Shown here piece by piece: positions 5,986-54,862 of a stretch of 64,000 nucleotides of DNA. This DNA comes from Paramacrobiotus metropolitanus (lineage: Eukaryota; Tardigrada; Eutardigrada; Parachela; Macrobiotidae): positions 124,001 through 188,000 of the forward strand of contig NW_026570330.1 of NCBI RefSeq assembly GCF_019649055.1, read 5' to 3'. Position 1 is the first letter of the stretch, and each line of letters opens with the position of its first letter. The notes beneath the pieces were generated by a model. The model saw only the letters and a list, made by a program, of their open reading frames with translations. It searched no databases and was not told where the DNA came from. Both the position numbers and the translations under genes were made by a program.

Positions 5986-8547
5986 TCAAGCTAGCACCTT
6001 CATCTCAATATTATTAGGCCGCGCTTCATCCCGCTCCACGCCAAACACCACCGTGCCTTCCCGTTTGGCGTCTTTGTCGTCCAATGATAATTCGGCATCG
6101 TGTTTATGGGAATCTTTGATCATCTGGTCGATCCGCTCCGACGACAAGGGAACGTCTTCGTCAGAGTGATGCGAGGCGGCGGCGAAGGCAGCGGACAGAT
6201 TCCCGGAGTGTTCGGCGGCGTTGCGCTGGATGAGATCGGGATTGAGGAGCGCCAGCGGGACGGAGGAGGAAGCGGCAGCGGCGTGGGCGCCGGTGTCGCT
6301 CTCACCAGAATCGTCTGCAAAAAGGTTGTACAATGTTTATTGAAAATTGCGGTTCGTACGCGAAAGTTTTTATACGTAATTCATTACAAGAAATATTTTT
6401 GGAAACTTTTTCCAAGTGTATTTTCTGAAATGCTTTCAAAATAAATACGGAATAATTTCGATATTCTGATTACTCGTACGCAGGGTATCTTTATTGTCTC
6501 GCATTCCTAAAGAAACGACCATTATATTTACTGTCGCTTATATTTTTCATTTATTTAATCTGCATCTTTGTTTATGAAATTTTACTCATGTTTATTGTGA
6601 TTTTATGGATAGCCGTTTCAGTAACATTATTCTTATTAAATGTTATCCTTGTTGCATATATAAAATTAAATGTTTAGTCTTGTGTCTATGGTTCGCGTTT
6701 GCATTTTTACTGACGGCATTAGTAGCCAAAATTAAACTGCTCCCTGTTCATTTTAATACCAAATAGACAAATAAAGTACTTAAGCATAAAGCAGGGTGTA
6801 AAAGCATAAAAGCAAATAAGCAAGACGAGTAGTAAATAAAATGGGAAAACTGCAAGCAAATATTTTGGCGTGGCGGCATGCGACAGTCAAATTCCAGCCA
6901 GGCGCACAGCTGCCGTTTTATGATCTCCGCGAGCAGTTACAGTAAATTCTTTTATTTTATATGCCAATAAAAAAGCATCAGACCGATTCAGACGTCCTTT
7001 ATTTTATTTTTATAAATTAACTGCACTATTATTCCACAGCTGACCGCGCCTAAACGTGAGCATGGTCGCGTTTTACAACCATAAAAAAATTTCTTTTCCG
7101 ACTGCCAATAAAGCAAAAAGTGTATCTGTATTTTTTGCCACAAAAAAAACCGAAGAGCTCCCAAGAAATGATGAAATAAATTTTAAAAAAAACGAAGCCA
7201 ACCTGCCAAAAAATAATAAAAAAATAGGCAGACTTTGAAAATAAAATCTTTTTATTCTGGCTGGTTTTAATTTGTAAAAATTGCAAAATGCGAGCGAAAA
7301 TGTGCGGGTTAGAAGCGTTAAAAGCGCTGTACCTGAGCCGCTATCGCTATCAGACTGCGAGGCGCTGTGCCGGGACGCTGCTGACCTTTCGCGGGGCGCC
7401 GACGGACTGCCGTCGACGTCGTCGTGCTCCTGCCGGATCTTGGCCTCCCAGCGCTCCATGTCCAGCTGCTCCAGCGCCTGCGCCGTGTTCAGGGCGCGGC
7501 GTTTCTTGGCGTGCCGGCGCGCCTTACGGTCCAGGTGCAGCGCGTGCAGGATGTGCCCCACCGGGCTGTGGCGGTGCTCCCCCTCGCTGTCCTGTACAAC
7601 AGTAATTTAACATGAATTTTATGGTACTTTATTGCTGTTATTCGTTTATTTTTCCTGCTTCTTTTTGTAGCCAATAATCTAACTGGTGATTTGATGTCTA
7701 ATATTTTAGCAAGTAAATGCTGGGGAACTATTGAATTTAACTGAACGAATTCTACTGCAGCCATCATTTTTTTAACCAAGGGTCCAAGGTAGTTAAATTA
7801 TTTCATTTAATTTCACAATTAAATGAAAATAAATAAATTAATAAAATTAATTATTAATTATTGAATAAGTTTTACAATTAATTATTTATTATTAATTAAT
7901 TATTAATTAATTATTAATTATTTGCAAATGACAAAATCCGAAAAATTGTTTAATCTAATTTCAAATAAATTTAGCGCTCAATAATTTATTACTTACTAGT
8001 ATTAATTTCTGCGAAATTATTTACAGATAGTTTTACCAAAGGGATTAAATTATGTGAATTTACGTCATACATACAGATACATATCTGTATATCGTCGAAA
8101 CCGATGCTAATTACGTATTTTACGAGGCTTAATTTTTACACAACACCTAACGCATTTTTTTAGTATGGATTGCTTTCGAATGTATGTACGTACCGGAGAA
8201 TGCGATTTGTTGGATACCGAGGACGTCTTGCGCTCGCCCAGCCCGTAATTATGCAGGGAATCCTTGGAATCCCGGCGGGAATGCTCCATATAGTAACGCG
8301 TCGGGTCGGACGCGTCCGAGTTGTTCTTGTTGAGCCAGGCCAGGAAGTCCGCATCGTCCACCACGGTCTTATCCAGCTCCTGCAGTGTCTTCATGTCGGC
8401 CAATTTACTCGCTCCACGACCGGCTTCGTCGCTCTTCCGCGCGCCCAACGGCGTCTTCCCGTTGGTGGCGGGACTGTTCTCGCTGGTGTCCATGCTCTTC
8501 AGGGAATTATTCGACGCCGACGTCTCACTCGATTTCACCACGGCCAT
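5986..8547 (-). CDS. Uncharacterised 313-aa hydrophilic, low-complexity protein
   Basis: I do not recognise this protein. Three exons join in frame: 8547-8194 (118 codons, phase 0), 7591-7333 (phase 1) and 6314-5986, ending in TGA. All four splice borders are consensus (CCG|GTACGT, GTACAG|GAC, TCAG|GTACAG, TTGCAG|AC). The protein is rich in Ser, Asp, Glu, Lys, His and Ala, with no signal peptide or membrane segment. The N-terminal ~60 residues are Ser/Thr/Asn-rich. Around residues 130-160 lies a basic helix-forming stretch (DRKARRHAKKRRALNTAQ). The C-terminal third has an Ala-rich run and an acidic end. A good 3' splice site (TTTTTCAG) lies 10 nt before the ATG, so a 5'-UTR intron is likely. 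The next gene upstream is LEA-like, so a stress-related disordered protein is possible, but that is inference. Confidence 0.72.
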
Positions 8548-8557
8548 CGCTTATTCT

Positions 8558-11500
8558 CTGAAAAATTCCCAATGTTATTATTTCATTTTTTAATTGCCTG
8601 ATGATTGTTCGAAAAATCCCTTGAATTAAAAATTACAAATCAAATGCAGATTCCAAAATTTAACGTCAAACTGCACCCGTCAATTATTTTGTAATAATAA
8701 TACAGGCGTAGAAATCCAGCTGGCAAATACTAGAGAAAATAATATTATCGTTATACTACTACAACTACAACTAAAAAATTACTACAACTAAAATTAATTC
8801 AATTATCAACTTTTGTTAATTTAGGCTGGAGCAGAATACTAAACGAAGATTAATTTTATGAATTTACCGCAATTTTAAAAACTAAAATGGTTTAACTTAA
8901 AATAAAATAAGCAAGCAAGACGACCGGAAGTAGTGCCAGGAATTCTTTTTAAAGATTATTGTGATTATCGAAATTAATTTAATTATTTTGAAATCCAGGC
9001 TGAAATAACATACGAAATAGGAATTAATTTTACGGACTTATTTCGCAAGATTAAAAATAAAAATTGGTTTAAATAATAAAAAGACCTGCGGAATTGCTTA
9101 TGATTAATACCAGTTGCGAAACAATATCAGCAAAATTCTCACCAGCAATTACACAGTGGGATACAAAAATCGAGGCAAATAATTTGTGCACAATCACGAA
9201 ACAGTAATCCGAGTGACCCCGATCAGAACCTTTTAACGACGAGTGTATTATATACGCGTATATTTCGATAATTTAATGAGCGATCGATCAATCGCGATAG
9301 GGAAAAAACAAGACGAACGTAACGGTTCAGCTGCTATTAATAGCGCTGTACAGAAATTAACGGTGTGAAAACTTCCTCCAGGCCACCAGGAAATTACAAG
9401 TACTAATCTTGTTTTTTTAACAATTACGATGTATGTTTTTTTGTCTCCGTTAGGCGAGCGTCGGCAGGTAATATCGTAGAAAACAAATAATATCCGGGGA
9501 GATTTTGGGCGCAAAAAAACATGCAGCTTCGATGAATTTCTTGTAATACGGCGAAAATAAAGAAACCCACTTCCGGTTGCACTTGAGCGCGAAATGTATA
9601 AGTAGAACGACGAGTAAAAGGGAAAACAACAACTTTACAAAACGGGTGAGTACAGCAAAAATAACACCTTTGTCGCAGAAATTGCTGCAGGGTGTGGCGC
9701 ATGTAGTATATAACCACTTCCACTCGGATAAATTACATAATTTATAATTTGTAAACAATCCTTATTTTATAATTCATTTCCGATTATTCCTGTTATCTCC
9801 ATAATTTTTTCCATAACGAAACAACATCATGCACATGCATACGGACTAATTTCCAATTTTTATACAATTTTTCATTAGTCTTATTTCTATTTTATTTTTT
9901 AAATGTATCCTTTTTCCACTTTCTACGAGTATTTATATTTCAGAATACAATAATTATAAGAATTCACCCAAAATTAATGCTCCAATATTTACTAGCAGTT
10001 ATTATTTTTAGTTATAAAATTTTTAATGATGCCATGCATTCCAGCGTGAGATTTAATTGTTAATTAATTAAAAGAAAATTAGCCATTGAATTACAGAAGA
10101 AAATTAACCTTTATAATTTTGCAGTCCTGTCGCAGCAGCAGCCACTAAGCATTCCGCTAGAAATATAATTCTACATTATTTTCTACGGGCTAAATATAAA
10201 TTACAAATCCAGACTCACCAAGTTGAAATTATCCTGATAATTATTTAATCCCTCAAGGAAAATAACGGATTATTTCCAAATATTCAAAGATTTAACAGCA
10301 GCACCACTTCCGTCGTCAGAACTGGATGGAATCGGTAAAATATTCGTCAGAAAAGTTCCAAGATTCCGAAGTCAATGATCTGCTTTTGCAAAATCAAATT
10401 ATGGCTGTCAAAAATTCTGGTTTCAGCTTGCAAATTTTGCTCAAAAACATGAATGATGGGCAAAACTCGGCGATCAGTGGAAAATATCGCACGCTGATAA
10501 GCGCGTCAGAACACGCACGCCTGGACAAAGGCCAGCTGGGACTCCGCCTCCTCCGCCGCGCAATTGGCTACCGCACAATCAGGAAATTTCTCGTACTCGA
10601 TGCAGCGGGATATTCCGCGCCGGCGATTGGTCACTTGGCCGCGATTAGCGCCGTGCACGTACAAAAATAGCCAACGCTGTTCAACTTTTAAAATGTTACG
10701 TCGTGCGATCTTATCAAGTGGCGTAGAAACAATATTATCAGATCTATCAGACGGTGAGTGCAGACTGGCAAGTGCTGGCTTTTATAGGTGAATTTCCGTC
10801 TGTACCGGCACAAAACAAGCACATCAACACGTAAACATTTCGCAATGTGTTCCAGGGTTGATTATGCCTGAATCAGCACTTTAAGAATGCTTGACGGGTT
10901 TATCAATTATTATTCGATGCGCCGACCTTTGTACAAGTTGGACTCGCGTACACTTGTCATGACGGAGCGGAAACAAACACACCGATTACTGCGGATATCA
11001 GTGTAGCGTGGAAGGCGGCTTAATTCATTTGGAAAAATATTTATTCAGCTCATTCTTCGTAAATCGAATCTAAAAGGACGGAAGTTTTCAGGTTTACTCG
11101 AGAAGGACACCGCTGAGGCGTTGACAGTAAATATATTTAGTTCTGATGAATATTTCCCACGATTTATTGTTGTTGAATTTCTTTTGCCGGACATGCACTA
11201 GGACTAGGTTAAAGAGCGCTGCTACGAAGGTGTGGCTGTCTGGGAAATCCGGGAAAGTACATACAGTACACAACATCGTGCTGGTACTTAATATTATGGG
11301 TGGCGGTGTAAATCCAACCTTTAATATGCCGGCTAAAATTACTGTTATAAAAACGCGGCGCATGCACTGCTGTGAAATACAGTGGTTGTCAAGCCGGCTG
11401 AATAAAATCAAGTATACCGTATACGTACGAATAATATAGAGGCCAATACGAGTGTCGTATTAATTTAATTAATTCTAAGGATTTAATTCGTACTCGACGA

Positions 11501-12274
11501 ATCTCTGGTGCACCGGAAACGGAATGTATCTGTTTGTCCACAGAATTAGCAGTCAGCAATATTTCAATATAACCAAGTATGTTTTTTTTGCAGATTAATA
11601 ATACGGTTGCATAATAAAACTAACGGGTCGTATCCATCGCCGTTAATAAAGTGAAAAACAAACCCACAAAAGCTTCGTTTAAAAATAAAATGAATCCTAA
11701 TAAATAAAAAAGCATAAATTAATCGTAATAATTAAATCCTACTAGAATATTATTTGGTACGAACAGCTTTTTCCGCTGTGGATCCGTCCAGTGACGAATA
11801 TATTGGTGCAATTCGTGATAATTACTGTTGACCATTACTCATTAGTATTTGATTTGTGTAATTCAATTAAAATAATTTCAGCGCGATGAAAGAAAATGTT
11901 AAAGCTAGAAATAATGGACTCTGTACCGCCTTCCGTTTATCGAATTTGTTTTACTGAAAGCCCGATATGGTGCAAATAGTGCATGCTCTCCACAGGGCCA
12001 ACACGACCATTTCCCAACCGAGACAAGAAACACTGTGAATTATCCGCTGTGTAGCTGTCAAAAAAGCAGCCATCTCAAAAAACATATCCTTGACAGAATA
12101 TTATACCAACGAAAATTCATACAAAAAAAAGGAAACCGAAATTCGAAAATAAACAGGAATGCACAGACAATACTCTTAATCAGTTGGAACCGTGTTTGAT
12201 TGTACAGCGACCGCGCGAGAGAGACGAGATGATTAATTCAGAGGAATAAATACAGGGAAATGCAGGGTGCGCGT
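8558..12274. other. Long AT-rich intergenic region with candidate promoter material
   Basis: Between the LEA-like gene and the 313-aa gene, both on the minus strand, I find no convincing coding exon. The stretch is AT-rich except for a GC-richer island at about 10.49-10.68 kb carrying two ATTGG words (10563-10567, 10626-10630). A minus-strand TATAAAAG lies at 10779-10786 and a consensus minus-strand donor (CTTG|GTGAGT) near 10220. These fit a non-coding first exon and 5'-UTR intron for the 313-aa gene. Small open frames here (for example 10326-10670) have no supporting features. Confidence 0.5.
10779..10786 (-). promoter_or_regulatory. Candidate TATA box for the 313-aa gene
   Basis: Read on the minus strand this is TATAAAAG, a canonical TATA box. 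It lies about 2.2 kb upstream of the ATG at 8547. Because a 3' splice site stands directly before that ATG, the distance can be explained by a 5'-UTR intron. The pairing of this box with that gene is inference. Confidence 0.35.
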
Positions 12275-13593
12275 CTACTTGCTGACATTGTGCTCGATGA
12301 CGGTCTTCTCTTCCTTCTTGTACGGCACATTCCCCACGTCGCCGGCCGTCGCGGGCGCATTGGGATCCAGCGCGTGCGCCACCTTCTCGTAGGCGGCCGT
12401 GGCGAGATGCGCGGCGCCCTCAGCCGCTGCGGCAGCGTATCCGCCTGTACAGAGAAAACCATGGAAATTAAATACTGCGCAAGCTGGTGGGGTGCCTGTA
12501 CTACGTGGCAGCTTGTAATGAAAGGCGGAAATCGATCGCTCGTTAAAAACAAGGCGCGCATTAACAATTATCCCGTTTACACCGGCTTAACGGAATTTTT
12601 AAAAATGAATAAAATAAAACGAAATTATACGTATATGGATACGAATGGTAAAACATGAAACAGAAAATGAATCATGAATGGATGCGAATCTACAAAAATA
12701 AAATGCAAATAAAACTTCATAATTATGTCAAGTGCTTGAAACCAGGCCAAGGAAATTCAACAACAAAGATCCGGCAATTATTCATGAATAATCATGAAGG
12801 AATTCAAAAATAAACTGATAAATGATTAAACATTATTGCAGAAATATTGGGAAATTACTGAGAGATTATTCAGGAATGTTTCAGAATTTTTAAGAAACAA
12901 TAAATTACGAAACAAATTAAAAAATTATCAAGGCATTAGTAATTAGTTGATCAGAACGAAATCATAAAAACCTATTTCGAAATTATTAAGGAATTATGAA
13001 GAAATAAATATTGCTGAAAAGTTCAGAAATTGATGAAAAAAAAATTCTTAGAAAAATCTTAACTGTTCATCGCTCTAGGAAAATGATCACAAATTATTGT
13101 AAATTAATAAGAATAAATTGAACGTACCGACGACAGCAGCCGCCGACTGCACATTCTCCCCCACGACGGTGGCCGCGTGCGCCGCGCCCTCCTTGGCCTG
13201 CTCCAGGAAGCTGCGGTTGTCCTGCACGGCGTCCTCGGCCTTATCCAGCTGCTGGTTGACCTTGGTGTTGCTGGCGTCGGTGGCCTGGCGCGTCTTGTCG
13301 ATGGCGGCCTGTGCGGCGTCCTTGCTCTTCTTATCCGCCGCATCCTTGGTCTCCTCCCACTTCTGGCCGGCCTGCTGCTGGACGTCACGGGCCGTATCCT
13401 TCACGTTCTCGGCGGCCTCGTGGGCCTTGCGCTGTACATTGTGGGCGGCATGCTGGGCGTCGTGCTTCAGCTCTTCCTTCTTCTCGTGGGCCGCCTGTTT
13501 CGTCTCGTCCAGCTTGATCTGGCCGGCCTGTTTGGCGTGCTCGGCGGCGGCGCCGGCTTCGTTCTTGGCTTGTTCCCACTTACGATCGGCCAT
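12275..13593 (-). CDS. Group-3 LEA-like hydrophilic protein (211 aa)
   Basis: This is a late-embryogenesis-abundant-type protein; such proteins are largely disordered when hydrated, fold into amphipathic helices on drying and protect proteins and membranes in desiccation-tolerant organisms. Two exons, 13593-13128 (155 codons plus one base) and 12444-12275, join G|GC across an intron with donor GTACGT and acceptor CTGTACAG. The sequence is almost entirely Ala, Lys, Glu, Gln, Asp and His in repeating amphipathic 11-mer-like blocks, for example KWEQAKNEAGAAAEHAKQ at residues 4-21 and KWEETKDAADKKSKDAAQ at about 77-94. There is one tryptophan in each of these two blocks. No mitochondrial presequence, signal peptide or membrane span is visible, so a cytosolic role is likely. 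The C-terminus is less repetitive and ends KKEEKTVIEHNVSK. The family call rests on composition and periodicity, not on a diagnostic motif. Confidence 0.75.
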
Positions 13594-13721
13594 TGTTTTA
13601 TCGAGGATAATAATTCGTCAGAAAAACTGCTTCAGAAAAAGTCAGAAACTAAGATTTGTAAGGTTGCTGTGGTAATCGATTTCGACTGTTAACGTGGCTC
13701 TTGTCTGGCTCGTACACGCGG

Positions 13722-13730
13722 CTTATAAAG
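13722..13730 (-). promoter_or_regulatory. TATA box of the LEA-like gene
   Basis: CTTTATAAG on the minus strand lies 129 bases upstream of the LEA-like ATG. A transcription start about 30 bases downstream would leave a ~100-nt leader. The word is palindromic, so direction is set only by the gene. Confidence 0.5.
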
Positions 13731-13826
13731 ATCTCTGACTGTGGGTCGGGCTGGGAAAGATCCCATTCACCCGTACTTTCGACGGAACGGAAGCTGGCAA
13801 GCTAACTCCACCTCTGCGTGGTTGTC

Positions 13827-13910
13827 ATTGGCTGAAATCCTACAGTACGCGAATGAGCATTGGTTAAACGGTGTAGCACGCCTCGTCCGCACGTACAGCG
13901 CTCCGATTGG
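13827..13910 (-). promoter_or_regulatory. Three CCAAT boxes upstream of the LEA-like gene
   Basis: ATTGG on the plus strand, which is CCAAT on the minus strand, occurs at 13827-13831, 13859-13863 and 13906-13910. All lie 100-190 bases upstream of the TATA box at 13722-13730. Multiple CCAAT boxes are typical NF-Y sites in strongly expressed animal promoters. The assignment is inferred from position and orientation. Confidence 0.45.
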
Positions 13911-13930
13911 CGGATTAGCCAGCGCCTCGT

Positions 13931-14975
13931 GCCCGCCCACCAGCTAGCGGCAGCATCGACCGCACGAGGCAAAAACCCAAACAACGTGAAAGCAGCGCTT
14001 TAGCAGGGGATTTTCGTGTTGTGGTGTTTGATTACGGCTGCGTGTTGGCTTTTGCCTTTTTCTCAATTGCATACCGCTTATCGATAATCAATGGGGAATT
14101 TGTAAACGCTACCGATACGCAATCGCTGACATGTTGCAAAATATGACTAATCAATGAACATAGTGCTCCGGTTACGTTACATCGGAAAATACCATTATGA
14201 TAGATGAGCCATTTGTGAACTATGCATTTTGACCTGGCGCCGGCTTAATTACCGATTATTGACCCGAATTTGCGGTCAGTTTAATTTTAAAAATTACTGC
14301 ATTTTTACAGAGTGTTTTTAACTCCCTTCTGTTCAGCTGATATCTTTGACGGATCAGCGAGTTTGTTTTGATAGTCGAAAAAAATTATTTAGCTGGCGTT
14401 TCTGATTTTCTGAAACATATTTTGTTGGATTAAGTCTGTGTAAAAATTTCTTGGAGAATTTTAGTCTTTTTTCGCTCACCATAACTGATTTTAATTTTAT
14501 TTCTTAATTATAGTTTATTATAGTATTTAATTTTTTCGTGGCTTGCAAAATTAAAACTACAATTACTTTTTATTTATGAAGTAAAATTTATTACAATAAA
14601 CTTATTTATTATAATATTTTTTCATTTATAAAATAAATCACGAATATTTTTTCATTTTATAAATTTCCATTTATCAATAAGAAACACAATATCAAGATGT
14701 GTCTAAGTAAAATTTATTTAATTCTTGGTCACTGTACATTCGCAATTAAAAGGTCTAAAATGATCATAATTATGACGAATGAATTAGAATTATTGCATAA
14801 CAGTATAACACCAATAAATAACATCGCTTTGAAAATTTTCGCTGGAAGCCGCACGACAGATCACAAATAAAAGGCACATTAAACTGTACACCATCCTAAC
14901 ACTGTAACACAAACATCGATGCACGGCAACGGAATGTCAAACAAAAAAGTGCTGATGAGACGCGGGAAGGGGAAA
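13931..14975. other. AT-rich spacer, no feature seen
   Basis: Between the LEA-like promoter and the 3' end of the 118-aa gene the sequence is mostly AT-rich with no supported exon. The 3' UTR of the 118-aa gene must lie at the right edge. Confidence 0.5.
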
Positions 14976-16148
14976 CTAATGCTTTTCCGGCATGCGCACA
15001 TCCTTCAGCAGCTCGTCCTCGGCGCGCTCCTGGGCGCTCTTGGGCGCCTCACGCACGGCGCCGCCCTGACCGTGGGTGACGGGGAAATCGTCACGCAGCC
15101 CGTCGGGTCCGGCCTGGCCTACATAATCAGTCAAAAACATGTCAGAATGTCAAACAAGAGACTTTGATTGCCAACCACAATACCGTGTCAATACGCATTG
15201 ATTTTACATTCGAGGAAAAATTTTTAAAAATATTTAAGTATTTCCAGCAAATTGTCAGTTGCCGGGTTTTGTTAAAAATAATTTTTCTTAGCTTTATTAC
15301 CGGATTAATTTTCGATCTGTAAAAAATAATTCAGCTTGAAATTAATCAAAAAACAAACGTTATTTATTTTCGGATTAGTTTTCAATTTAAAAATTAAGTA
15401 CGCATTAGTTACTAATTAATTTTACTTTTCGGTTCGTCTTCGCCGTGCTACGCATCGCGTTTTACTCGACTTCCGGTACCCCAGCTGGCGCAAAATGATT
15501 TTTAAATTTAAAATAAAACACTGGAAAAATGTAATCCAAAATTGAAAATCTGCACAACGACCGGATAATTATATTCCAGTAAATTACAAGCAGCTGTTCC
15601 ATAATTAAAATTGATTCAGTTCCATTTTTCTCAATTAAATTCTGAAATAATGAAATTTTCATTCATCAAGCAGACTACTCTAAGTCTACTCGTCACGTCA
15701 AGAAATTAATTCGAAAATATTAAAAAATGAAGCTGGAAAATTACAGTACAAATTCTAAAAAAACTGTGAGAATGTTTTGAAAAGCAATTTCAATTATAAA
15801 TAAGCGAGGTGAACTATAAAAATAATAAAATTTTAAAATGTTAAATTGAATTTCTTATTTCCACAAGAAATCACCGATCACGTGAGCTAGACTTTGATTT
15901 TTCTCGGATCGCATCATCGCCATCCATCCCTCACCTGTCGCGGGTGGAAAATATCCAGCCAGATCCTTATCAGCGATGGGGATGCCCTGATTGAGGAGGT
16001 CCTGATCGGCGGCGTGGTGGCGCGCCTCGGCCATATCGGCCGCCAGATACTTGTCTGCCGTGGCGATGCTGGTCTCCGGCGGATGGACGGGATGCACGCT
16101 GTGCGCCTCCGCTCCCACCTCACCGCTGCTCTGCCTCCGCAGCGACAT
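14976..16148 (-). CDS. Uncharacterised small hydrophilic protein (118 aa)
   Basis: I do not recognise this protein. Exon 1 is 16148-15935 (71 codons plus one base, donor ACAG|GTGAGG). Exon 2 is 15118-14976 (acceptor TTATGTAG), joining G|GC in frame and ending in TAG. The product is polar and probably disordered: His, Ala, Asp and Glu are common, and a loose repeat is visible, with ATADKYLAADMAEARHH followed by PIADKDLAGYFPPATG. It has no signal peptide, transmembrane segment or cysteine pattern. Its hydrophilic make-up, small size and position next to a LEA-like gene suggest a hydrophilin-type stress protein, but nothing in the sequence proves a function. Confidence 0.6.
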
Positions 16149-17191
16149 TATTCCGACAAATTCCCGAGAAAATATTCAACAGATTCACCACACACTCGCT
16201 GCAGGAAAAATGAGAACAAATTAGCCAGCGCTGTCTGAAAAAAAGGGAACCAAAAGTAGCGCGTCAGCTGATGCGGGATTACGCGGCACAAATTACGATC
16301 GCAGTGTGTTGCGTGAGAAATCATAAACACCTCAAGGAGAATCGTACAGTAGCGTACCTGTGTAATATTAAAAATCCGCAGGCTACAGTCTAGGCGATAC
16401 ACTTTTACCGAATTTTGTGTCGGACTCGTTAAAAAGCTCTCTGCCGAATAAAACCGTATTAAAACCTGTTTTAACGGTGTTTGCCTGTTTGGTAACACGG
16501 AATTATGGCTGTTTTCCTTGAGCGCAGCGTTAGCATTGCGCAACCGGTCTAAACAAAGCTGACGTCACGTACAAAGGCACGGCTGGCTGCGCTGTGTTCG
16601 ACAACTTCTACTACTGTGTGTTGTGTTGTCTACCATGAAATGACGGCTTGCGCCTATTCTACCGATCTGTCAGGCGGCAGCGGATTACTGAGCGATTAGA
16701 ATGCGCATCGTTTTCCCAAACCCATTCATTTTCGAATTTCTTGGGTTATTTTCATGAATTCAGTATTTATTTTGCAAATCACCGAATGCTTGTGCCTTGT
16801 GGAATATATTTTATTTAGAATTGTTAAAACAATAAAATTTCAATGTTCGACGTTTTGCAAAACTTGGCTGGATTGCCTGATCCTGCGTGTGTTGCTACCG
16901 TGAAATTATCGCTTGCGCCTTTTCTTCACTGATCTGCGCAGATGCAAATCATGCAGCTGATCAGAATGAACGTCACTTTTTCCAAACCCATTCATTTCAA
17001 ATTTCCTTCTTTATTTTTTTGAATTCGTTTTGCATTTCACCGAATGTTTGTGGATTACTTGAGTTTAAATTTTTTAAAAAGTTAATAAAATCGCCATTGG
17101 ACTTTGTACTTGTCCTGCCAGTGGATTATTTTAATTTATTTCGCGAATTGTGCATTCTTCCTGGACAGTCTTCCCGAATTATTCCCCCAGC
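16149..17191. other. Divergent promoter region with an internal duplication
   Basis: This spacer separates the start codons of a minus-strand and a plus-strand gene and must hold both promoters. A block at 16620-16845 is repeated at 16885-17100. Both copies carry CTACC(A/G)TGAAAT.A.CGCTTGCGCC, a CTGATCTG-like word, CCAAACCCATTCATTT and CACCGAATG in order. The duplicated copy lies immediately upstream of the coiled-coil gene. Confidence 0.5.
16620..17100. repeat. Two-copy tandem duplication upstream of the coiled-coil gene
   Basis: The two ~220-base copies (about 16620-16845 and 16885-17100) share ordered words despite many substitutions, for example TTTCCCAAACCCATTCATTTTCGAATTTC against TTTCCAAACCCATTCATTTCAAATTTC. 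The downstream copy reaches to within 100 bases of the ATG at 17192, so it probably forms part of the promoter or leader. Confidence 0.55.
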
Positions 17192-17578
17192 ATGCCCGAG
17201 AACACTCCCCCACCCTCCCTCCGCACCGCCACCGCCGCCGACCGTCCCTACGCCGGCATCCTCTCCCAATCCAGCCCGGCCACCGTGGACTTCATCCTGG
17301 ACATGTACGAACAGGAAGACCGTCGCCGTGAGCTGGAAGAGCGCAAACGCCTCCTGGAAGCCCGTCTCCTGGAGCTCAGTGAACGCCTCCGCGAGCTGGA
17401 ACAGCTCAAAGCCAAGCTGCAGCGTGAACGCGACACCCTGGAACGGGAGTGCCAGGATATGGAGGCCCGCGTGGATCATCTGGAGCAGCTGGTGCAGGAG
17501 GCGCAGCAGGAAGGGGAGCCTCTGTCGGAGAACGGAGATAATGGTCCTGAATGGCCGGATGCAGAGGAGGCGCTGTAA
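17192..17578 (+). CDS. Small coiled-coil protein (128 aa)
   Basis: A single-exon frame with strongly GC-rich codon use. It starts at the first ATG and ends in TAA; the in-frame codons just upstream contain no other ATG. Residues 1-30 are Pro/Thr/Ser/Ala-rich. Residues about 32-108 form one long, highly charged coiled coil (EEDRR, LEERKRLLEARLLELSERL) with leucine at heptad spacing and almost no helix breakers. The C-terminal ~20 residues are acidic. The coiled coil should make it a dimer or an adaptor. No basic DNA-binding region precedes the zipper, so a bZIP factor is unlikely. I cannot name the family. An intronless gene of this size could also be a retrocopy, but no poly-A tract or flanking repeat is evident. 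Confidence 0.65.
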   Translation: MPENTPPPSLRTATAADRPYAGILSQSSPATVDFILDMYEQEDRRRELEERKRLLEARLLELSERLRELEQLKAKLQRERDTLERECQDMEARVDHLEQLVQEAQQEGEPLSENGDNGPEWPDAEEAL

Positions 17579-19122
17579 GATGGTGCGCAGAATGCAGGAT
17601 CGGTTTGTGGTTGACTGTGATATTAGAATTCGGCTTGGGGATTTTAAGGGATAGGATGGCTATTGGTTCTTTATTTTTCGGAGGCTGTTTTTTCAGTTTC
17701 TCGCGTTTTTATTCTCTCAACGTGTCCAGCGGGTATTTTCTCTTGTATTTGTGCCAGTTGACTGTTTCTCATAATTTTGCCGGGTTTTAAATGTTGATTA
17801 CGGCTTGATGCTGAATCTGTATGTTTTTTCATGAGCTTGAATTAAAGTCGTATTTTTATAATTCGTGCCAGATTTGCGGTCGCATTAGTTGATAATGTAT
17901 TTTTTTAAAATATGCACAAATTAAGTGGTGCCAAATATCGGCAATAAAGTAAAAAAATTACAGAAGTCGCGTCGATTAAATGTTTTACTGCAGTTTTAGC
18001 AGTAAATTAACGGGAACTCAAGCGCTGAATTAAATCGGTATTTTTGTAGCGCGTTTTTCTTAATTCTTCCCAGATTTACGTTCGCATTAGTCAGAATTTT
18101 TATTGATACTTTATACAAATTTCGCGATGATAAAAGCAGCGTCCCAGAAACTAGTGATGTGCTACTACAGCTTCATGCTACCTTACTTACTATTTACTAA
18201 TCTACCAAAACTTTTACTTACTATTACTTACTATTAACCCCAAAATTTTTGAAATACTTACTATTACTTACTATTCCCATTTTTCCCAACCAATTACTTA
18301 CTAATTATACTAAATAAATTTTATCTAATTTTTAATTTAAAGTTATTATCATTCTTGGGACGCTTGTGCGTTTCATGAAGTAATCAAAATGTACTGTACT
18401 TTATGCGAATCTATGGTGTAAAGGCAAAATCTAACAGTACAACTGCGCTGCACAATCGGCTTGCCAGGCTGCTGCTGCATTGCAGTGTTTCAAATCCTAT
18501 AATTATAAGTACTTTACGTAACCGCAGTTTCGGGTTGGCGGTACATTGCGTTTACGTGAACAGCAATACCACCGTCTGTTAGGGCACCAACTTTAGTATG
18601 CATCACCATTAATGATGAACCTGCCCTAATACAGCAATGAGTCTTCTGGATATTCGAAAAAATTCGATTAGTAAATGAATTAGTAAATAACTTTTTTTAG
18701 CGAAAGCCAAATCTTACTATTTACTTACTATTTACTATTGTAGCTGAATATTTACTTACTTTTACTAATCTTGGCTGTAAAACTTTACTGTTTACTACAC
18801 ATTTAATTTCAGGGAAGCTTTTACTAATTAACCAGCACTTATTTAGTTTTATTTAGTAGCACATCACTACCAGAAACGTCCCAAAATATTAGTAACTCGA
18901 CAGTCTGCGTCGATTAATTTTGTACAGTTCAATGCTTCAAACGATAAATCAGTGTTTAATGCGATATAAAATTCGGTAAAATCGTTATTAAGAAATTAGG
19001 AAACGCAAAATCCGACCAATCAGTAAGCGGATAAAAGATGTCAACAAATAAATAAAATATCCGATGCCAGTGGAAATGTCGACGGAACCCACAGGGAAAT
19101 CTCAGCCAATACGGAACGGAAT
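17579..19122. other. Spacer containing a hAT-like MITE
   Basis: No coding exon is visible between the coiled-coil gene and the stop codon of the minus-strand SNRPA1 gene. About half the spacer is one complete 718-bp MITE, listed separately. The remainder is AT-rich. Confidence 0.55.
18152..18869. mobile_element. hAT-like MITE, 718 bp, complete copy
   Basis: The element starts TAGTGATGTGCTACTA and ends with the exact inverse TAGTAGCACATCACTA. It is flanked by a perfect 8-bp direct repeat, CCAGAAAC, at 18144-18151 and 18870-18877. An 8-bp target duplication with TAGTG-type ends is the signature of the hAT superfamily. Next to each end are clusters of TTACTTACTATT words in inverted arrangement, as expected for transposase-binding subterminal repeats. 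No transposase frame exists, so the element is non-autonomous. A second copy of exactly the same length lies at 54863-58751, where it is interrupted by another insertion. Confidence 0.88.
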
Positions 19123-21603
19123 TCATTCGATCTCCATGTCGTCTTCTTCCTCGACAATATTCCCACCTAAACAAGAAATTCCCAGTTGATTCATCTAACG
19201 GGGCAAATAATCGCCAATTTCAACCAAATAACAACCGATTTTTTAACCGATTAATAAGCATATTTTCATCAAATAACAGGCAAAAATAATTAATAATAAC
19301 CCGTTATTACTTAAATAATAGGCAATTATCTGTAAATGCCAATTTTAACCAAATAACAAACAACTTTTTTAACTGAGAATACGCATATTTAATCAAAATA
19401 CAGGTAACAATAATAACCAGTTTGTATTTAAATAATAGGCAATTACCTGTAAATGTCAAACTTAACCAAATAACAACCATTTTTTTAAACTGAGAATAAG
19501 CATATTTAATCAAAATACAGGTAATAATAACAACCAGTTTGTTCTTAAATAACAGGCAATTATCTGCGAATTACCCGCAGCGACGGCCTCGCCGTTGGTG
19601 GCCGGCTGACTGCCGGGGATTTCGCCGGCGGCCAGCATCTCGTGTAAACGTTCCACTTCCTCCAGAGAGCGGGCGTTGGCTATGGCGTTCTACCAACCAT
19701 GACATCATCAATTCAAAATTATCATCAATTATTACCAAATTATCATCAAATTTTCATTATTATTATTACTATTAATTTAAAAGAAAGAAAAACAAGCGAA
19801 CGCCGAAAGCGAAGCGAAGAACACTTCTTATTAAAACACCAAAATTACTGTATAAAAATAGTGAAGCCATAACGATTTTCAAATACAGCCAGGCTAACCT
19901 TGATAGCTTCCACTTCCGCCGCGGATCGTCCGGCTGTCGCCGCCGCCAGGACGCTGGGTTCAGCGGTGGCCACACCAGCCACGACGGTTTTGGTCTTCTG
20001 GCCCAGTTCCTTCTCCAGCTGGCGGCCTTTTTTTCCCTTAAACATCGCGGCGGCTTCGTCGCGCTCCTGCAAAAAAAACGTACAATCTAGTTTTCCAGCT
20101 GCCGACATTTTTCTCAATTTTTACGATTTATTTGTAACGATTGTTTATGGTTTATTTTTCCCAACTGAACCACCAGATTTACTAGTCTGCCATTAACGAA
20201 GAAAGAAAAAGTTAACTTAAAAAACTGAAAAGTAAAACCAAGGTTCTGGTAAGCTGAAACTTTTTTGATAAGATATTAATTCAATAAAAAATAACTAAAA
20301 AATCTGGAAACCTTGCCTGTTGTTTGATCTTGCGGAAATCCAGGACGCGCAGCGAGGGTATCCGGTGAATAACGTACAGTCGGTACTGCGGATGATTGGA
20401 GACGGGATTGCGTGTGAGACTGCAGTCACAAGCAAATCGTGCGACAAATTAATCCCAATTGCTCAAAGTGCCTCTCTGCATCGGCGCATCATTCACCTCA
20501 AATACTGCAGCTTCTTCAGCGGCGCCAGCGCATCTAGATCGCCCAACTCCTGCATCATGTTATTAGTCAGTATGAGCGACTCTAGCGACGGCAAAGATTC
20601 TTGCAAATTTTCACCAATGCGACTAGAAGCACAATCCACAAGAGATTAAATAATTCAATAATAAATTCGCCATAATTCGCACATATCGTCTTTCTTCGCT
20701 TTTACTGTTCTTAAATAATTAGTTTAGTATTTAATTACCTAATAAAAACTTTAAAATTGTAAACTGGGAATGAAACATACTGTACATTTATCATAGGAAT
20801 CATCCAAACAAGGCAACAGAAAAGAATAAAAATTAAAATATTCATTACTAAATAAGAAAATTAACGGCTAAAAATGACTTCTGGATTCATTTTGGACTTC
20901 ATAAAAGTGATATAATTTCATTAATTATTTTTTAGATTATAAAAATTCTTCAGTTATACAGTTACTAAGATTTAAGTAATTATTGCCCATTTACAATATT
21001 TCAAACCATTTAAACTGATTTTTAAACCATGTAAAGTTTTAAACTGATTTAATTCATAATTTTTCAAAAATAATTCAACGATGTCATCCAAATCCCTGTA
21101 CAACATTACGAAACAGCCCTACGCCAGTACAGAATCTACTGTTTTGCGCCGCAGTGCGGTCGCTACAAGCCGTAAGCGCGCTGCTCAGCTTTCGCATGAG
21201 CAAATGGGAGAAGCTCGAATGGCTGTCATCCCAGAAAAACAAATTGCAATGCAGATAAAACATCACCAAATCGCCTGTGTTACCATATGCGGTTGTTGTT
21301 GCAGAGGAGCGTCTTGAGACGATAAAGCAGCGGGAACCCGTCGATTTTGCGGATATCATTGTCGGAGAAGTCGATACAGTCAAACTGATCCTATAAAAGA
21401 AATGCCAAATTGAACATTTATTATAAATAATATATTCACCGAGCGCTTTTTAAAAAAATCAAGTAATAAAGTAAACAAACCAGAGTGGCGCCCAGGTTCT
21501 CGATAACGGTAACTTTGGCTCCTCGCAAGTCTAGCATGCGTTCCTGGCAGGGATTGAAGCACTGCGGCGCTCTCTGGATTACATCGGCGGTTAGCTTCAC
21601 CAT
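19123..21603 (-). CDS. SNRPA1: U2 small nuclear ribonucleoprotein A'
   Basis: U2A' binds stem-loop IV of U2 snRNA with U2B'' and is a core part of the U2 snRNP that selects the branch point. Seven exons join in frame: 21603-21481, 21390-21284, 20622-20497, 20419-20317, 20066-19899, 19689-19575 and 19166-19123, giving 261 aa against 255 in human. The N-terminus (MVKLTADVIQRAP), the LDLRG and VIENLGATLDQFD leucine-rich repeats, the FSDNDIRKIDGFPLL and ILTNN repeats, RLYVIHRIPSLRVLDF and the MFKGKKG motif all match the family in order. The tail is acidic, as usual. The intron between exons 4 and 5 has donor CAG|GCAAGG and acceptor TTGCAG, a GC-AG intron; only this junction gives the family sequence KIKQQ-ERDEA. 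The divergent PWWP gene starts 0.7 kb away. Confidence 0.96.
19205..19570. repeat. Three-copy ~120-bp tandem repeat in the last SNRPA1 intron
   Basis: Three head-to-tail copies share AAGCATATTT(A/T)ATCAAA, ACAGG(T/C)AA.AAT, TTAAATAA(T/C)AGGCAATTA.CTG and AACCAAATAACAA in order. The third copy runs right up to the donor of exon 6: its AATTATCTGCGAATTACCC replaces the AATTACCTGTAAATG seen in the other copies. Each unit therefore carries a sequence similar to the genuine donor on the minus strand. Confidence 0.65.
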
Positions 21604-22295: not shown

Positions 22296-25200
22296 ATGTT
22301 CCGTTCCCAATTAACCCCATCCACCTCGCGTCTGACGCAGACGGACGACGTGGAGCGGGAATCCGACACCGAGTCTAGCGACGATTCCGGGGACGGCGCG
22401 GGCCTGGATGACGCCAGCCAGGAGCCCGTCGACGCCATCATGACCGTCCTCCTCAACGCCGTCAAACTTCCCCGCAGCGCCAGTGAACGGGCGGGCACGC
22501 TGGGGTTCCTGGAGAGCGAGGCGTACGTGGAGGCGGGGCAGACGCTGGATCTGATGCTGGAGCACTGGCAGCACCATGCCTCCTTCCAGCCGGGGTTTCT
22601 CGATGAGGCCGCCCAGCGGGATCTCGATCCGCATCGCTTCAGCTGGGTGAAGGTGGGCCAGCTGGTCTGGGCCAAGCACAAACGCTTCGATTGGTACGCT
22701 TTCTGTCCCATACTCAGCAATAGATGGCGAATTAATAAAAATTGCGCATACGAATATTGATTTTTTTTAAAAAGCCCGTAATAGAATGGTATGGCTCACG
22801 CTGATTAAAAATCTGGCTCTATTAAAGATCAGTTATTATTTTAATTGGTTTTAATAGAGTGAAAAGTACAGTATTCTATCGCAGGACCGATAAATTAAAT
22901 AGATAATTTGATATGTGTTCTTTAAACGACAAAATAATGGACGACTTTCATAAATAATGGTTCTGATGATTTTTTAATACTGTATCCGCTCGCACATCTT
23001 GAACCACAGAGTGTGTGTACGGGAAAAACGCGCATTCAATATACACACTCTAACCGGGCCAAACGCGCGATTCGCGATTTGATAAATTTCTGATGTCTTT
23101 GCAACATCTGGTCTGGAGAACTTCTTGAATATAAAAAAAAATTGGAGCTCTAACAATTTTAAACTTGTTTATGCTCGATAGCAGCCATTAACATACAGCT
23201 TTGCCGTAAGCACGAGTTACAGACTGATTTGTTGTGGTTTTTGGGGTACCCCTGGAAGGGGATGGGTACGTTCAGCGTCAACATTCTTGATGGCGATGAA
23301 CCACAGAACAATTCGAGCTTTCAGCTGCGGAACCTTTTTCCAGAGTGAACTGCCATTTAAATGAAAATTCTTGGTTTATTGGACAAATTCACAAGAAGAA
23401 CTGTTCATCTTGAAACCAAATGAGCAATATTTCGTAGTCGTGCATTTTGCCCGGTTAGAGTGTGTATATTGAATGCGTGTTTTTCCCGTACACAAACTCT
23501 GTGGTTCAAGATGTGCGAGCGGATACAGTAATTTTTTAATAAAGTGAGGCATGATAGTATATCACAATTTACGGGCACGTACGGGATCGTAAGTTAAATA
23601 ATATACATATGCGTTTGCCAGATGATGAAACAAAATAAACAGGCTCGAGGCAAATCAGTATGATGATTTTTAAAAAAATAAAATTAAAAAGATTTTTAAA
23701 AAAGCCTTTGAAACCCCGTATTGATTGTATACTTACATTTTCAAATTGAATAGGTGGCCAGCGGTGATAAAGAGCATCAAGCGTAAGAAACGGCAGCGGA
23801 CCCTCAACGCCAGCAGCCACGTGGTGGTGATGTTCGTGGAGCCGGTGTACGATCACTATCTGCAGTACGTGAAGAGCGGACTCAAGTACGTCCTGGGGGC
23901 CGTTCACCAGCTGACGCCCATGCATCTGGCCCGCTCCGAGGGGGAGATACAGCGCTCCAAACGCTCCTGGATGACCGCGGAGGATTCCTACATGGACAAC
24001 ACCATGTTCGAGGTCTCCGAGCGGATGGTACGGGCGATGACGACGATCATTAATTTTGACAAAATAATGAATTAATGGACTACACTAACAACATCCATGT
24101 ATCAGTAAATTTACAAATTAAAAGGTAAATATAAAAAACAGATAATTTAAAAAATAAATTTACTGTACAGATAGTAAATTAAATTTTAGATACACCCGCA
24201 AAATACGGCAGTGAAAGTTTGTTTTCTTCCTGTGTTGCAGGCCGTGGTGTACGAGATGAACCGCGATAAGTTGGTGCGCGACGGAACGCTGAATTTTGAG
24301 CTGCTCGGGGCGCTGTACTATCTGGCGGAGATCGTGTGGTGCAAGATGTGCTCCATGCATGTATGTCGAGAGAAATGCTGTAATTCCTTGAATTTTATTG
24401 ATAACAACAATGAGGATGATTTTTTATTGATTTTTTTAAAAATTCTTTCCGAAAGATGATGTTTTAGTTCCTTGTAATTCCCGAATTTTATCTACAAGAA
24501 AACTCCTTTGGAGTTTGTTTCTTTATTTCCTGGAGTTTCATCGATAAGGAGAATCTGGCCTTCTTTTCATCCGATGCCGTAATATTTTCGTAACAAATAC
24601 CTTTACGGAACATCCGATCAAACACAAAAATATCGGAAAATCCATTTTAAACGCTTTTTCGTTTTAAAAAAATTTTTATAGTTGTGAAAATTGGTCACTT
24701 CGTGTTCTTTCTCTTGCGAAAGCTGACCGTGAGTAAGTCGATAACTGTGTTTTCGTACGTATCCCTGGACTTTCTAGTTAGCCTTTGTACTACGTTAACC
24801 GCTGAATTGTACAACTGGAATATTTCCAGGTTGTCGCTTGCTTCGTACTAAATTAGCGTTTAATGCAGCTGAGCGACGGTAATCTCTGGCAGTCGACTGA
24901 CTGCGATTTGGATAATAAATATTAAATCAGTTAGGAAAATATTTAGCCTATTAATCAGTCAATTAATTAGAAGAAGTATTAATAATAATAAATAGCAAGT
25001 AATTAATGTACATCATGATGGAATAATAAATTAAATAATCACGAGTGAGCAATAATAAATCAGATAATTGAATATTTATTTGATTGACTATTTAATTAAC
25101 AAAAATTTATTATCGACAAATAAATTTGATGTTCTTTATTGTTAATAAATGCAGATTATCCCGCCCAACCCCTTACCCAACCTGGACCCCTTCAAACCCT

Positions 25201-28200
25201 TCCTGTCCACCCTGGAGGACGTGTCTTTCTGGCGCGACACCGCCCAGCCCCGTCCCCCTCGGCCGCGCCCCTACGCCGACCCCACGGACCCCCCGGTCAC
25301 CGAGCCGACGGAATGGTACGGCTTCGACTTCATCCAGATTGCCCTCCAACGCGACCCCACCAAAATCGACTACTCGGAGGAGAATGCCGCCGTGGTGCAG
25401 CAGCGCAACGTGTATGCCGCGCGTCTATTAGACGCCATCCGCAGCCCCGGGTGCCAGCGCTATCTGACGACGCTGCGCGATGCCCCGCGCACCGATCGCC
25501 GGCACACGAAGCGGACGCGGGCCTGGGTGATGCGGGAGATGTGGCAGTTGGTGCATCAGGAGATCCGCTGTCCCTCCGGACCCATCGTGGAGGATGGGCA
25601 GGTGTTTGAGTTGTATAGACTGATGAGAAGGATCCGGAGGAAGGAGGACGATGATAATGTGCAGTTTATGCGCGATTGCTATGATGTCTGGCTGCCGGAG
25701 GCGGTCATCTATGCGATCATGGTGAGACAGTGATGGATGCGACATAAACTGATTTTTTTAGGAAATTAATTATAGTTTTTTTAGGGATTAAACTGTAATT
25801 AATATTTTGTAGAGATTAAATTGTAAATAATATTTTTAGGGATTAATTTACGATTAATTTGGTTAATTCCCGTGTTTTTCTTATAGAAAAAATAATAAAA
25901 AAATGTAGCGTTGTTTTATGAACGAATTAATGTAAAACAATATAAATTGAAGATAACTGTGATTCTGCTGGGAATCAACCTGATTTTTGCTTAAATATGT
26001 CAGTTCTGGCGTTTTCATGTTTGTAAAAAAATAAAGTAGATTAGACGGAAAGAGTGTAGTGATAATGTGCAGTTTATGCGGGATTGCTATGATGTCTGGC
26101 TGCCGGAGGCGGTGATCTGTGCGATCATGGTAAGACAGGGGATGCGACATTACTTCATATTTTTTGAGGGTTACCTAAATTATAATCAGCATTTTTTAGG
26201 GATTAAACTGTACTCGTATTAATATTTGTTAGAGATTAAATTGGAAATAATGTTTGTTAGGGATTAAATTAGTTGTAGATTAATTTGGTTATTTAATTCA
26301 CGGGTTTGTCTTATAGGAAAAAAAGTTGTAAAAAATCATAACATATTTAGAAACGAATTAATGTAAATTAATGCAAATAACTGGAGATTTTCTGTTAATT
26401 AACTAAATTTTTACTTAATTACGTCAGTTCTGGCTTTTGCTTATTTTAAAAAAAATTGACGAATTATGCGGCGGATCGGGCGGGAGGATGACATCATCGT
26501 AAAATTAAGCGCTAAAGTGCAGGAAGCGTAAAGAGGAAGTAAAAGCAGCATTGGGAAGTAATTTAAAAAAACTTACAATTAACTTCAAATTTAATTTAAG
26601 ATGTCTGATGCCATAGAGAAGTATGCCATAGGGAAGTGATAACTGACCTTGAGCGTTTGAAAACGTTCGAGCCATAGCACTACGATTCTGTCGATCAGTT
26701 AAACGTTTTTCGGGTATACTCGTTACTTTTCGCCATTTCTTAATCGAAACGTAATTTTTAATTAGGTATGTCACGTCTTGGCACAGATGTTTATTGTGCC
26801 ACTCTGGCCGGATAGATACTGAGTAATAATGATAATAATGGAAATACTCGTAGTACCACATAAAATGCGTCCTCTACAGGTCAACACAGTCATGCGGGTT
26901 GCTACGCGCTAATATGGCGCGTAGCCACTACACTACATCTTCACCCTTAAAATGAAGTGAAAAAGCAGAACATTATGGCAAAATGTCGAAATAATCTTCC
27001 TCGACATTGTAGACGGTATTGACCTTTTCCTTCTTCTTGTTGTCCTTCTGCTGGCATGCCCTCTCTATATGGCCTTTCATGCCGCAACCATTGCATCTGG
27101 TGTTTTTATACCAGCATTCTTCTGGCGTATGCCGCCAGGATCCACATCTTTTACATTTCCGCCGGGACGGCATCTCTTCTTCACTTCCACTTTCGTCATC
27201 ATTCTCTTCCTGTCTCTTTTCTCTACTGCTCTTCTCCTCTTTCTTCACTCTTATTTCTCGCTTCTTAATGTTGTTCACCACATTCTCTTCCACATTAGTT
27301 TTTCTCGCCTCTTTCACGCTTGTTTCATATTTGATAGCAATTTGGAGGGCGGCGTCGAACGTCTTCAGCTCTTGCAGCATTAGGTAGCGTCTTGTTGCGT
27401 CGCTTTTGACGCCTGCCACGAGCACAGCACTTAAATTCTTCTCCAGCACTGTTGCCGGAAAGTCGCATAGGATCGTTTTGTCACGTAAACGTGTCGCGAA
27501 GTCCACCAGGCTTTCTTTTTCGTCCTGCCGAAGACTGAAGAACAGCGCCCACTCGGTTATTTGGTTTGTGTACGGGGCGTAGGCCGTTTCCAGCTTCGTG
27601 ACCAGTTCACCCAGTGTGAAGTCGGACGGCATCTTGGGTTTGCACATCGAAACTAAAAGCTGCAGGGCCTTCGTGTCCAGACTGTTTATTAGCAAGGCAC
27701 GGTGCTTGTCCGTATGAAGGTCGGTCAGCACAGTATAATTATCATACAAAAACTTCCACGCCTTCCAGTCCATGGTTTCCGGATTGAACTTGGTCAATTG
27801 ATCGGTTGTGGTCGTCATTTTCGATCTCTTATTATATAGCGCTCGCTTTCCTCTTCTCCTTTCCCGCTTCAGAGTTCAGAGAATACTACACTTCACGCCA
27901 ATTGTCACGTCTTGGCACAGATGTTTATTGTGCCACTCTGGCCGGATAGATACTGAGTAATAATGATAATAATGGAAATACTCGTAGTACCACATAAAAT
28001 GCGTCCTCTACAGGTCAACACAGTCATGCGGGTTGCTACGCGCTAATATGGCGCGTAGCCACTACACTACAAGGTATTTGCTATTCAGTGACATGGACTT
28101 TGTCTGATTGTGGTATGTTCACTTTTTCATACTTCTTACATCATAATTTCAGTATTCACTGCCGTTATTGCCACGAATTAATCAAATTCATTTTAAATCC

Positions 28201-54337: not shown

Positions 54338-54862
54338 TTCTTGATATTGTTATCGCGTTTTTGGAAATAAAAGGTGGTCGTACCAACAGCCGAAATTACT
54401 GTGTCGAATCAGAATGGCTGCCCTTGCTGGGTGGCGGTTTGAATACCAACAGCGTTTTGAATGCTTAGTGAGTGTTCAAATACACATTACTTCCAAGAAC
54501 TGCGTACTGGAAAACCAGATTCAGTAAACTGTAATTGTAAAAAATACGTCATGCTTCGCGGCTCAGAATCGTAATTGAAAAAGTATTCTCTCAAAGATCT
54601 TCATAACTTAATTTTCAGAATTACCTGAATCGACGCTGCAGGGATCAAGCAAAGTTGCGGGACCCGAGGAATCCACTGCAACTGGGGTTTGGAGGACTTT
54701 GATAAAGGGGACACACTCGTTCCGTCTGCCAGCTCTTGAAAAATCCATGGCCCTTTGACTGTCTGAAGCTGCTACTGTTACGTCACAATCACGCACTCCA
54801 TTTTCGTTGGGACTTTCCACAACACCAGCAGGATTCTTCATACTCTCCATCGATATAAAATC
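54338..54862. other. Spacer after the RT ORF, no gene seen
   Basis: This contains the 3' tail of the preceding element, with an AATAAA-type word in GGAAATAAAAGG just after the stop codon, and unannotated sequence up to the 8-bp duplication that begins the interrupted MITE. The minus-strand frame at 54608-54850 is polar and unsupported. Confidence 0.4.

Follow-up and report, generated by a model that had tools for sequence, protein, structure and literature searches.

Gene islands of the midge Polypedilum vanderplanki, the ARIds, represent the closest described precedent for a LEA gene surrounded by unfamiliar neighbours. In the available part of the source, a LEA island contains orphan Lil genes that drying induces (PMC7363813). 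These Lil genes are paralogues of one another and encode hydrophobic proteins (PMC7363813, same part). Group-3 LEA proteins have as their main feature the 11-residue motif TAQAAKEKAGE (PMC6559209, accessible text). In addition, the accessible text on HeLEA1 describes weak amphipathic 3-11 helices, a change from disorder to helix at charged membranes, and weak and reversible membrane binding (PMC10808001).

In a stretch of 64,000 nucleotides from the tardigrade Paramacrobiotus metropolitanus (hereafter, the window), four adjoining genes, P1 to P4 (Table 1), had been proposed to constitute an undescribed cluster of desiccation-protection genes around a LEA gene. No description of this neighbourhood was found in the literature searched. 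The reading that we favour, with a probability of about 0.7, is that P2 acts like a group-3 LEA protein, and that P1, P3 and P4 are independent genes lying next to it by chance. That the four genes form a system is unproven and, on present evidence, unlikely.

Table 1. Coordinates of the predicted genes and candidate regulatory features in the window
Feature	Position	Strand	Description
P1	8547-8194, 7591-7333, 6314-5986 (span 5986..8547)	minus	3 exons, 313 aa
P2	13593-13128, 12444-12275 (span 12275..13593)	minus	2 exons, 211 aa, group-3-LEA-like
P3	16148-15935, 15118-14976 (span 14976..16148)	minus	2 exons, 118 aa, orphan hydrophilic protein
P4	17192-17578	plus	single exon, 128 aa, heptad coiled coil with polar ends
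Putative P2 promoter	13721..13910	minus	TATA (CTTTATAAGC) some 130 bp upstream of the ATG, with three CCAAT boxes before it in the gene's orientation
Palindromes	16536..16567		TTGCGCAA (C/EBP-like) and TGACGTCA (CRE-like), between divergent P3 and P4
Tandemly duplicated segment	16622-16794 and 16888-17052 (16622..17052)		73% identical, upstream of P4

The window is eukaryotic DNA with GC-rich exons and AT-rich introns. The gene models, rebuilt from GT..AG boundaries and translation, are predictions from sequence; the expected ends are present in all four introns, of which P1 has two and P2 and P3 have one apiece. Coding character was scored by codon log-odds, with 13 other ORF stretches from the window as the training set and base shuffles as the reference for z. 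For every one of the eight coding exons this score ranked the true frame best of six, with values between 3.4 and 9.4 (P1, 5.9, 4.3 and 5.5; P2, 9.4 and 4.4; P3, 3.4 and 4.7; P4, 6.7). Five comparison ORFs ranged from 0.0 to 2.6. The score misses some real exons, since in the U2A'-like gene, which is genuine, one exon stretch reached only 1.6. Two ORFs (10326-10670 and 10506-10781) were considered as a fifth gene and set aside, with weak coding z values of 2.6 and 2.2 and no Pfam match.

The spliced models recover the lengths and extent originally assigned to the four genes. As had also been claimed, three of the four share a strand, an arrangement with a chance probability of 0.625 for at least three of four. 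All four products are polar (GRAVY -0.72 to -1.09, FoldIndex negative in every case), and the proposed lack of signal peptides agrees with a hydrophobicity check, used in place of a signal-peptide program, in which the first 36 residues of each protein contain no strongly hydrophobic stretch. At the level of gene prediction, it is confirmed that the four genes were correctly read, that one is LEA-like, and that two have no recognisable family in the libraries searched.

To the right of the four genes lie a U2A'-like gene and then genes for a glycogen phosphorylase, an MFS transporter and an S28 peptidase, with reverse-transcriptase copies farther along. Three exons of the first of these, here designated U2A'-like, match Pfam LRR_9 (E 4e-12 to 1e-16). 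The best PDB matches of the phosphorylase exon are mammalian muscle glycogen phosphorylases, in keeping with an animal source, although no feature found in the window demonstrates tolerance of drying. The window has no Rfam matches at gathering scores and no tRNAs detectable by tRNA scan. Several repeats were observed along this DNA. Directly 3' of P1 (5294-5898) there are two diverged direct-repeat pairs, 78% and 69% identical. Beside P4, positions 18148-18400 are 88% identical to 54859-55107, a dispersed repeat, and a 117-bp tandem repeat of 2.4 copies (19292-19566) adjoins the U2A'-like gene at its last exons. An inverted repeat (22978-23530) has arms of 93 nt, 95% complementary and 367 nt apart, and a segment of 92 nt (25639-25730) recurs 408 nt downstream at 89% identity (within 25639-26138) as a partial duplication of the exon-like ORF there. 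At 26769-28071, two identical direct repeats of 169 nt, 1,134 nt apart, flank a minus-strand ORF of 300 aa with two CCHC-like cysteine knuckles recognised by eye and no Pfam match; this looks like the remnant of a young LTR element with a gag-like gene.

The case for P2 as a LEA-like protein is built on its periodicity. In the period scan, residues 1-135 show a hydrophobicity period of 3.66 that was reached by none of 300 shuffles, and a second hydrophobicity scale gives 3.67 for residues 1-140 (0 of 1000 shuffles), with no signal at period 3.5. Taken alone, residues 1-70 are not significant (38 of 300 shuffles); residues 66-135 are (3 of 300). About twelve 11-residue rows can be laid over residues 5-136, and in the best register 35 of 132 positions are identical to TAQAAKEKAGE, where shuffled sequences average 24.7 (P 0.0002, 5000 shuffles), while the consensus of the rows matches the motif at 7 of 11 positions (P 0.02). 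P2 thus displays the loosely conserved 11-mer of group-3 LEA proteins, and its GRAVY of -0.92 and FoldIndex of -0.07 agree with their hydrophilicity and predicted disorder. Its best four helical windows have a weak hydrophobic moment, with discriminants of 0.07-0.40.

On the other hand, Pfam LEA_4 (PF02987) is not among the three families listed for P2 at E values up to 10, in a search whose HMMER filters drop most weak matches. For this reason P2 is termed LEA-like and is not filed as LEA_4: the 11-residue amphipathic repeat bears out the proposed group-3 likeness, but the Pfam family assignment does not follow. The best Pfam matches, DUF6468 (E 0.031) and Apolipoprotein (E 0.17), both fall below cut-off, as, by a wide margin, does the top NCBIfam match, the Ag473 lipoprotein, which at E 0.0015 scores 19.3 bits where 100 are required. 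The sole match among PDB sequences up to E 1 is V-ATPase G1 (E 0.38). A single-protein scan, sensitive to close relatives only, found none in viral contigs (tblastn) or in bacterial and archaeal contigs.

From its likeness to HeLEA1, we infer how P2 might work. It would be a soluble cytosolic or nuclear protein acting like a group-3 LEA: disordered in water, it would fold into a 3-11 amphipathic helix when dried or when it meets a weakly charged surface, and would shield proteins or membranes against aggregation. Eleven-residue repeats are also used by apolipoproteins, perilipins and synucleins, and the end of P2 may resemble synucleins. It is nevertheless unlikely that P2 is a lipid-associated repeat protein of one of these kinds instead of a LEA. 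Apolipoprotein (PF01442) is indeed its second Pfam match, and the Ala/Val-rich C-terminal segment (131-183) has a period of 3.68 that was reached by 5 of 300 shuffles, but that match amounts to 12 bits where the family's curated cut-off is 90. Moreover, the hydrophobic moment and discriminant are low, the 11-mer rows fit the LEA motif, and the N-terminus has no hydrophobic stretch.

P1 had been described as disordered, which is just partly right because its single-sequence model contains a confident helix at residues 128-178, with residues 131-170 at pLDDT 90-94; nearly half of the protein (149 of 313 residues) does fall below pLDDT 50. The model also shows a C-terminal beta hairpin, and the flanks are polar. 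Within the central helix lies a basic cluster, RKARRHAKKRR, with eight Lys or Arg in 13 residues (shuffle P 0.0045). P1 has no match in Pfam or NCBIfam and none in PDB sequences up to E 10, and tblastn on viral contigs, which would detect close relatives only, returned none. P1 is best read as polar with a single basic helix, and nuclear, nucleic-acid or calmodulin contacts are possible.

P3, recovered as the hydrophilic protein that had been predicted and with a negative FoldIndex, likewise matches nothing in Pfam or NCBIfam and no PDB sequence up to E 10, and close relatives, the only ones within reach of these scans, were not found in viral (tblastn) or bacterial and archaeal contigs. It contains two I-x-x-A-D-K-x-L-A segments, and an internal 9-mer repeat is identical at 6 of 9 positions (shuffle P 0.017, for a word length picked post hoc). 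Its model is poor (pLDDT 62, pTM 0.15), with helices at 28-53 and 100-111. It may resemble plant SMP proteins, and it would be best regarded as a small hydrophilic orphan.

P4 conforms to the coiled-coil protein that was foreseen. Over residues 46-114, 74% of the heptad a/d positions are hydrophobic (Ala included) against 14% elsewhere, and none of 200 shuffles, scored over the same grid, reached the heptad score of 4.96 (shuffle maximum 4.09). These heptads are shared with generic coiled-coil proteins (ATG16, HAUS1, tropomyosin-like), but the best 25 of 54 Pfam matches, ATG16 (E 4e-05) and HAUS1 (E 8e-05) included, all lie below each family's cut-off, and so do the best 25 of 37 NCBIfam matches. 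The Pfam matches are many and unrelated, and therefore reflect coiled-coil similarity only. There was no PDB match at 0.01 and no relative in viral contigs by tblastn, which is limited to close relatives. An identification as HSBP1 was rejected, its 16.6 bits falling short of the 28.6 needed. P4 would probably form a coiled-coil oligomer. Of the three genes proposed to be unrecognisable, P1 and P3 gave no match in the libraries searched, and P4 is a coiled coil.

The upstream regions were compared for P1, P2 and P3; P4 was left out of the word comparison because its upstream region overlaps that of P3. The three regions have 16 8-mers in common, against 7.1 expected and a random maximum of 18, a count towards the upper end, and for words of 8-10 nucleotides overall the count stays within the random range. 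P2 is preceded by the only place in the window where three CCAAT boxes occur on the same strand within 90 bp, and the same patterns find no such TATA and three-CCAAT layout in the 1-kb upstream regions of P1, P3 and P4. Heat-shock elements were considered as a common regulator and rejected, the window containing no exact three-part HSE.

Between P3 and P4, whose start codons are head-to-head and 1,044 bp apart, the palindromes TTGCGCAA and TGACGTCA, which we take to be a C/EBP-like and a CRE-like site, are each the sole copy in the window and stand 16 bp apart; a pair of this type within 40 bp was found in 1 of 60 random windows. Together with the tandem duplication upstream of P4, these features could indicate that only this divergent pair is co-regulated, from a shared bidirectional stress promoter with P2 as a separate gene. 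We consider this improbable, given that the motifs were first picked out visually and the scan of nine motif classes came afterwards. Motifs and duplication, chosen post hoc, are leads for a shared promoter.

A co-regulated desiccation island, in which P2 shields and its three neighbours serve as new protectants or scaffolds, is very unlikely as an account of the whole locus. It is favoured by the polarity and negative FoldIndex of all four products and by the midge precedent of a LEA island that holds lineage-specific genes, the ARIds with PvLil (PMC7363813, available part). Nevertheless, four polar genes in a row are not especially rare here: the probability is 0.08, 0.21 or 0.42 for 12 genes of which 5, 6 or 7 are polar, and 0.05 or 0.13 for 14 genes of which 5 or 6 are. 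Among the 10 other exons or exon sets measured, 2 have a negative FoldIndex. Known ARIds, as described in that part of the source, consist mostly of highly duplicated paralogues (PMC7363813), whereas P1 to P4 are no tandem paralogues: they lack mutual homology (the strongest cross-match has E 0.18), the search for further copies in the window gave no match better than E 0.6, and tblastn detected no second P2 there. The island is further opposed by the differing upstream layouts, the absence of common upstream words beyond the random range among P1, P2 and P3, and the position of P4 on the opposite strand. With gaps of 3,728, 1,383 and 1,044 bp between the coding regions and P4 being a coiled coil, the claim of a clustered desiccation system is not supported.

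Chance neighbourhood is accordingly our preferred reading. It is not proven, because in Polypedilum vanderplanki orphan genes beside LEA genes are induced by drying; we infer both the functions of the four genes and the absence of co-regulation. A bolder version of the island reading would make P3 and P1 the founders of undescribed, lineage-restricted hydrophilic protectant families that are co-induced with P2 on drying, with P3 and P4 on a bidirectional promoter of CRE/C-EBP-like type, the whole forming a small mixed-family island; this we regard as highly improbable. If co-induction of the neighbours were true, position beside LEA genes would offer a route, beyond midges, to new protectants. 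At present the result is mainly an annotation covering four genes, of which P1 and P3 have no recognisable family in the libraries searched, and P2, if its LEA-like status is confirmed, would be one more 11-mer repeat protectant.

Among known systems, P2 is comparable to the group-3 LEA proteins HeLEA1 of Hypsibius exemplaris and LEA-1 of C. elegans. As far as the accessible parts of the sources go, it shares their hydrophilicity and negative FoldIndex, as well as the 3-11 helical periodicity, TAQAAKEKAGE-like 11-mers and weak hydrophobic moment (PMC10808001, PMC8670023, PMC6559209), and it differs in the missing Pfam LEA_4 match. HeLEA1 has a predicted mitochondrial signal in the portion of the report at hand (PMC10808001), whereas the N-terminus of P2, assessed from its residues and not by a targeting program, is charged and not hydrophobic. 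At the level of the locus, ARIds with PvLea and PvLil have in common with P1 to P4 that a LEA-type gene lies beside genes without recognisable relatives (PMC7363813, available part). However, those islands consist for the most part of duplicated paralogues whose induction has been reported (PMC7363813, available part), while the tardigrade genes, predicted from sequence, show no paralogy, and a mixed-family island would be unlike the paralogue islands of Polypedilum. Finally, the PvLIL proteins are described in that part as hydrophobic transmembrane proteins (PMC7363813), whereas the products of P1 to P4 are polar.
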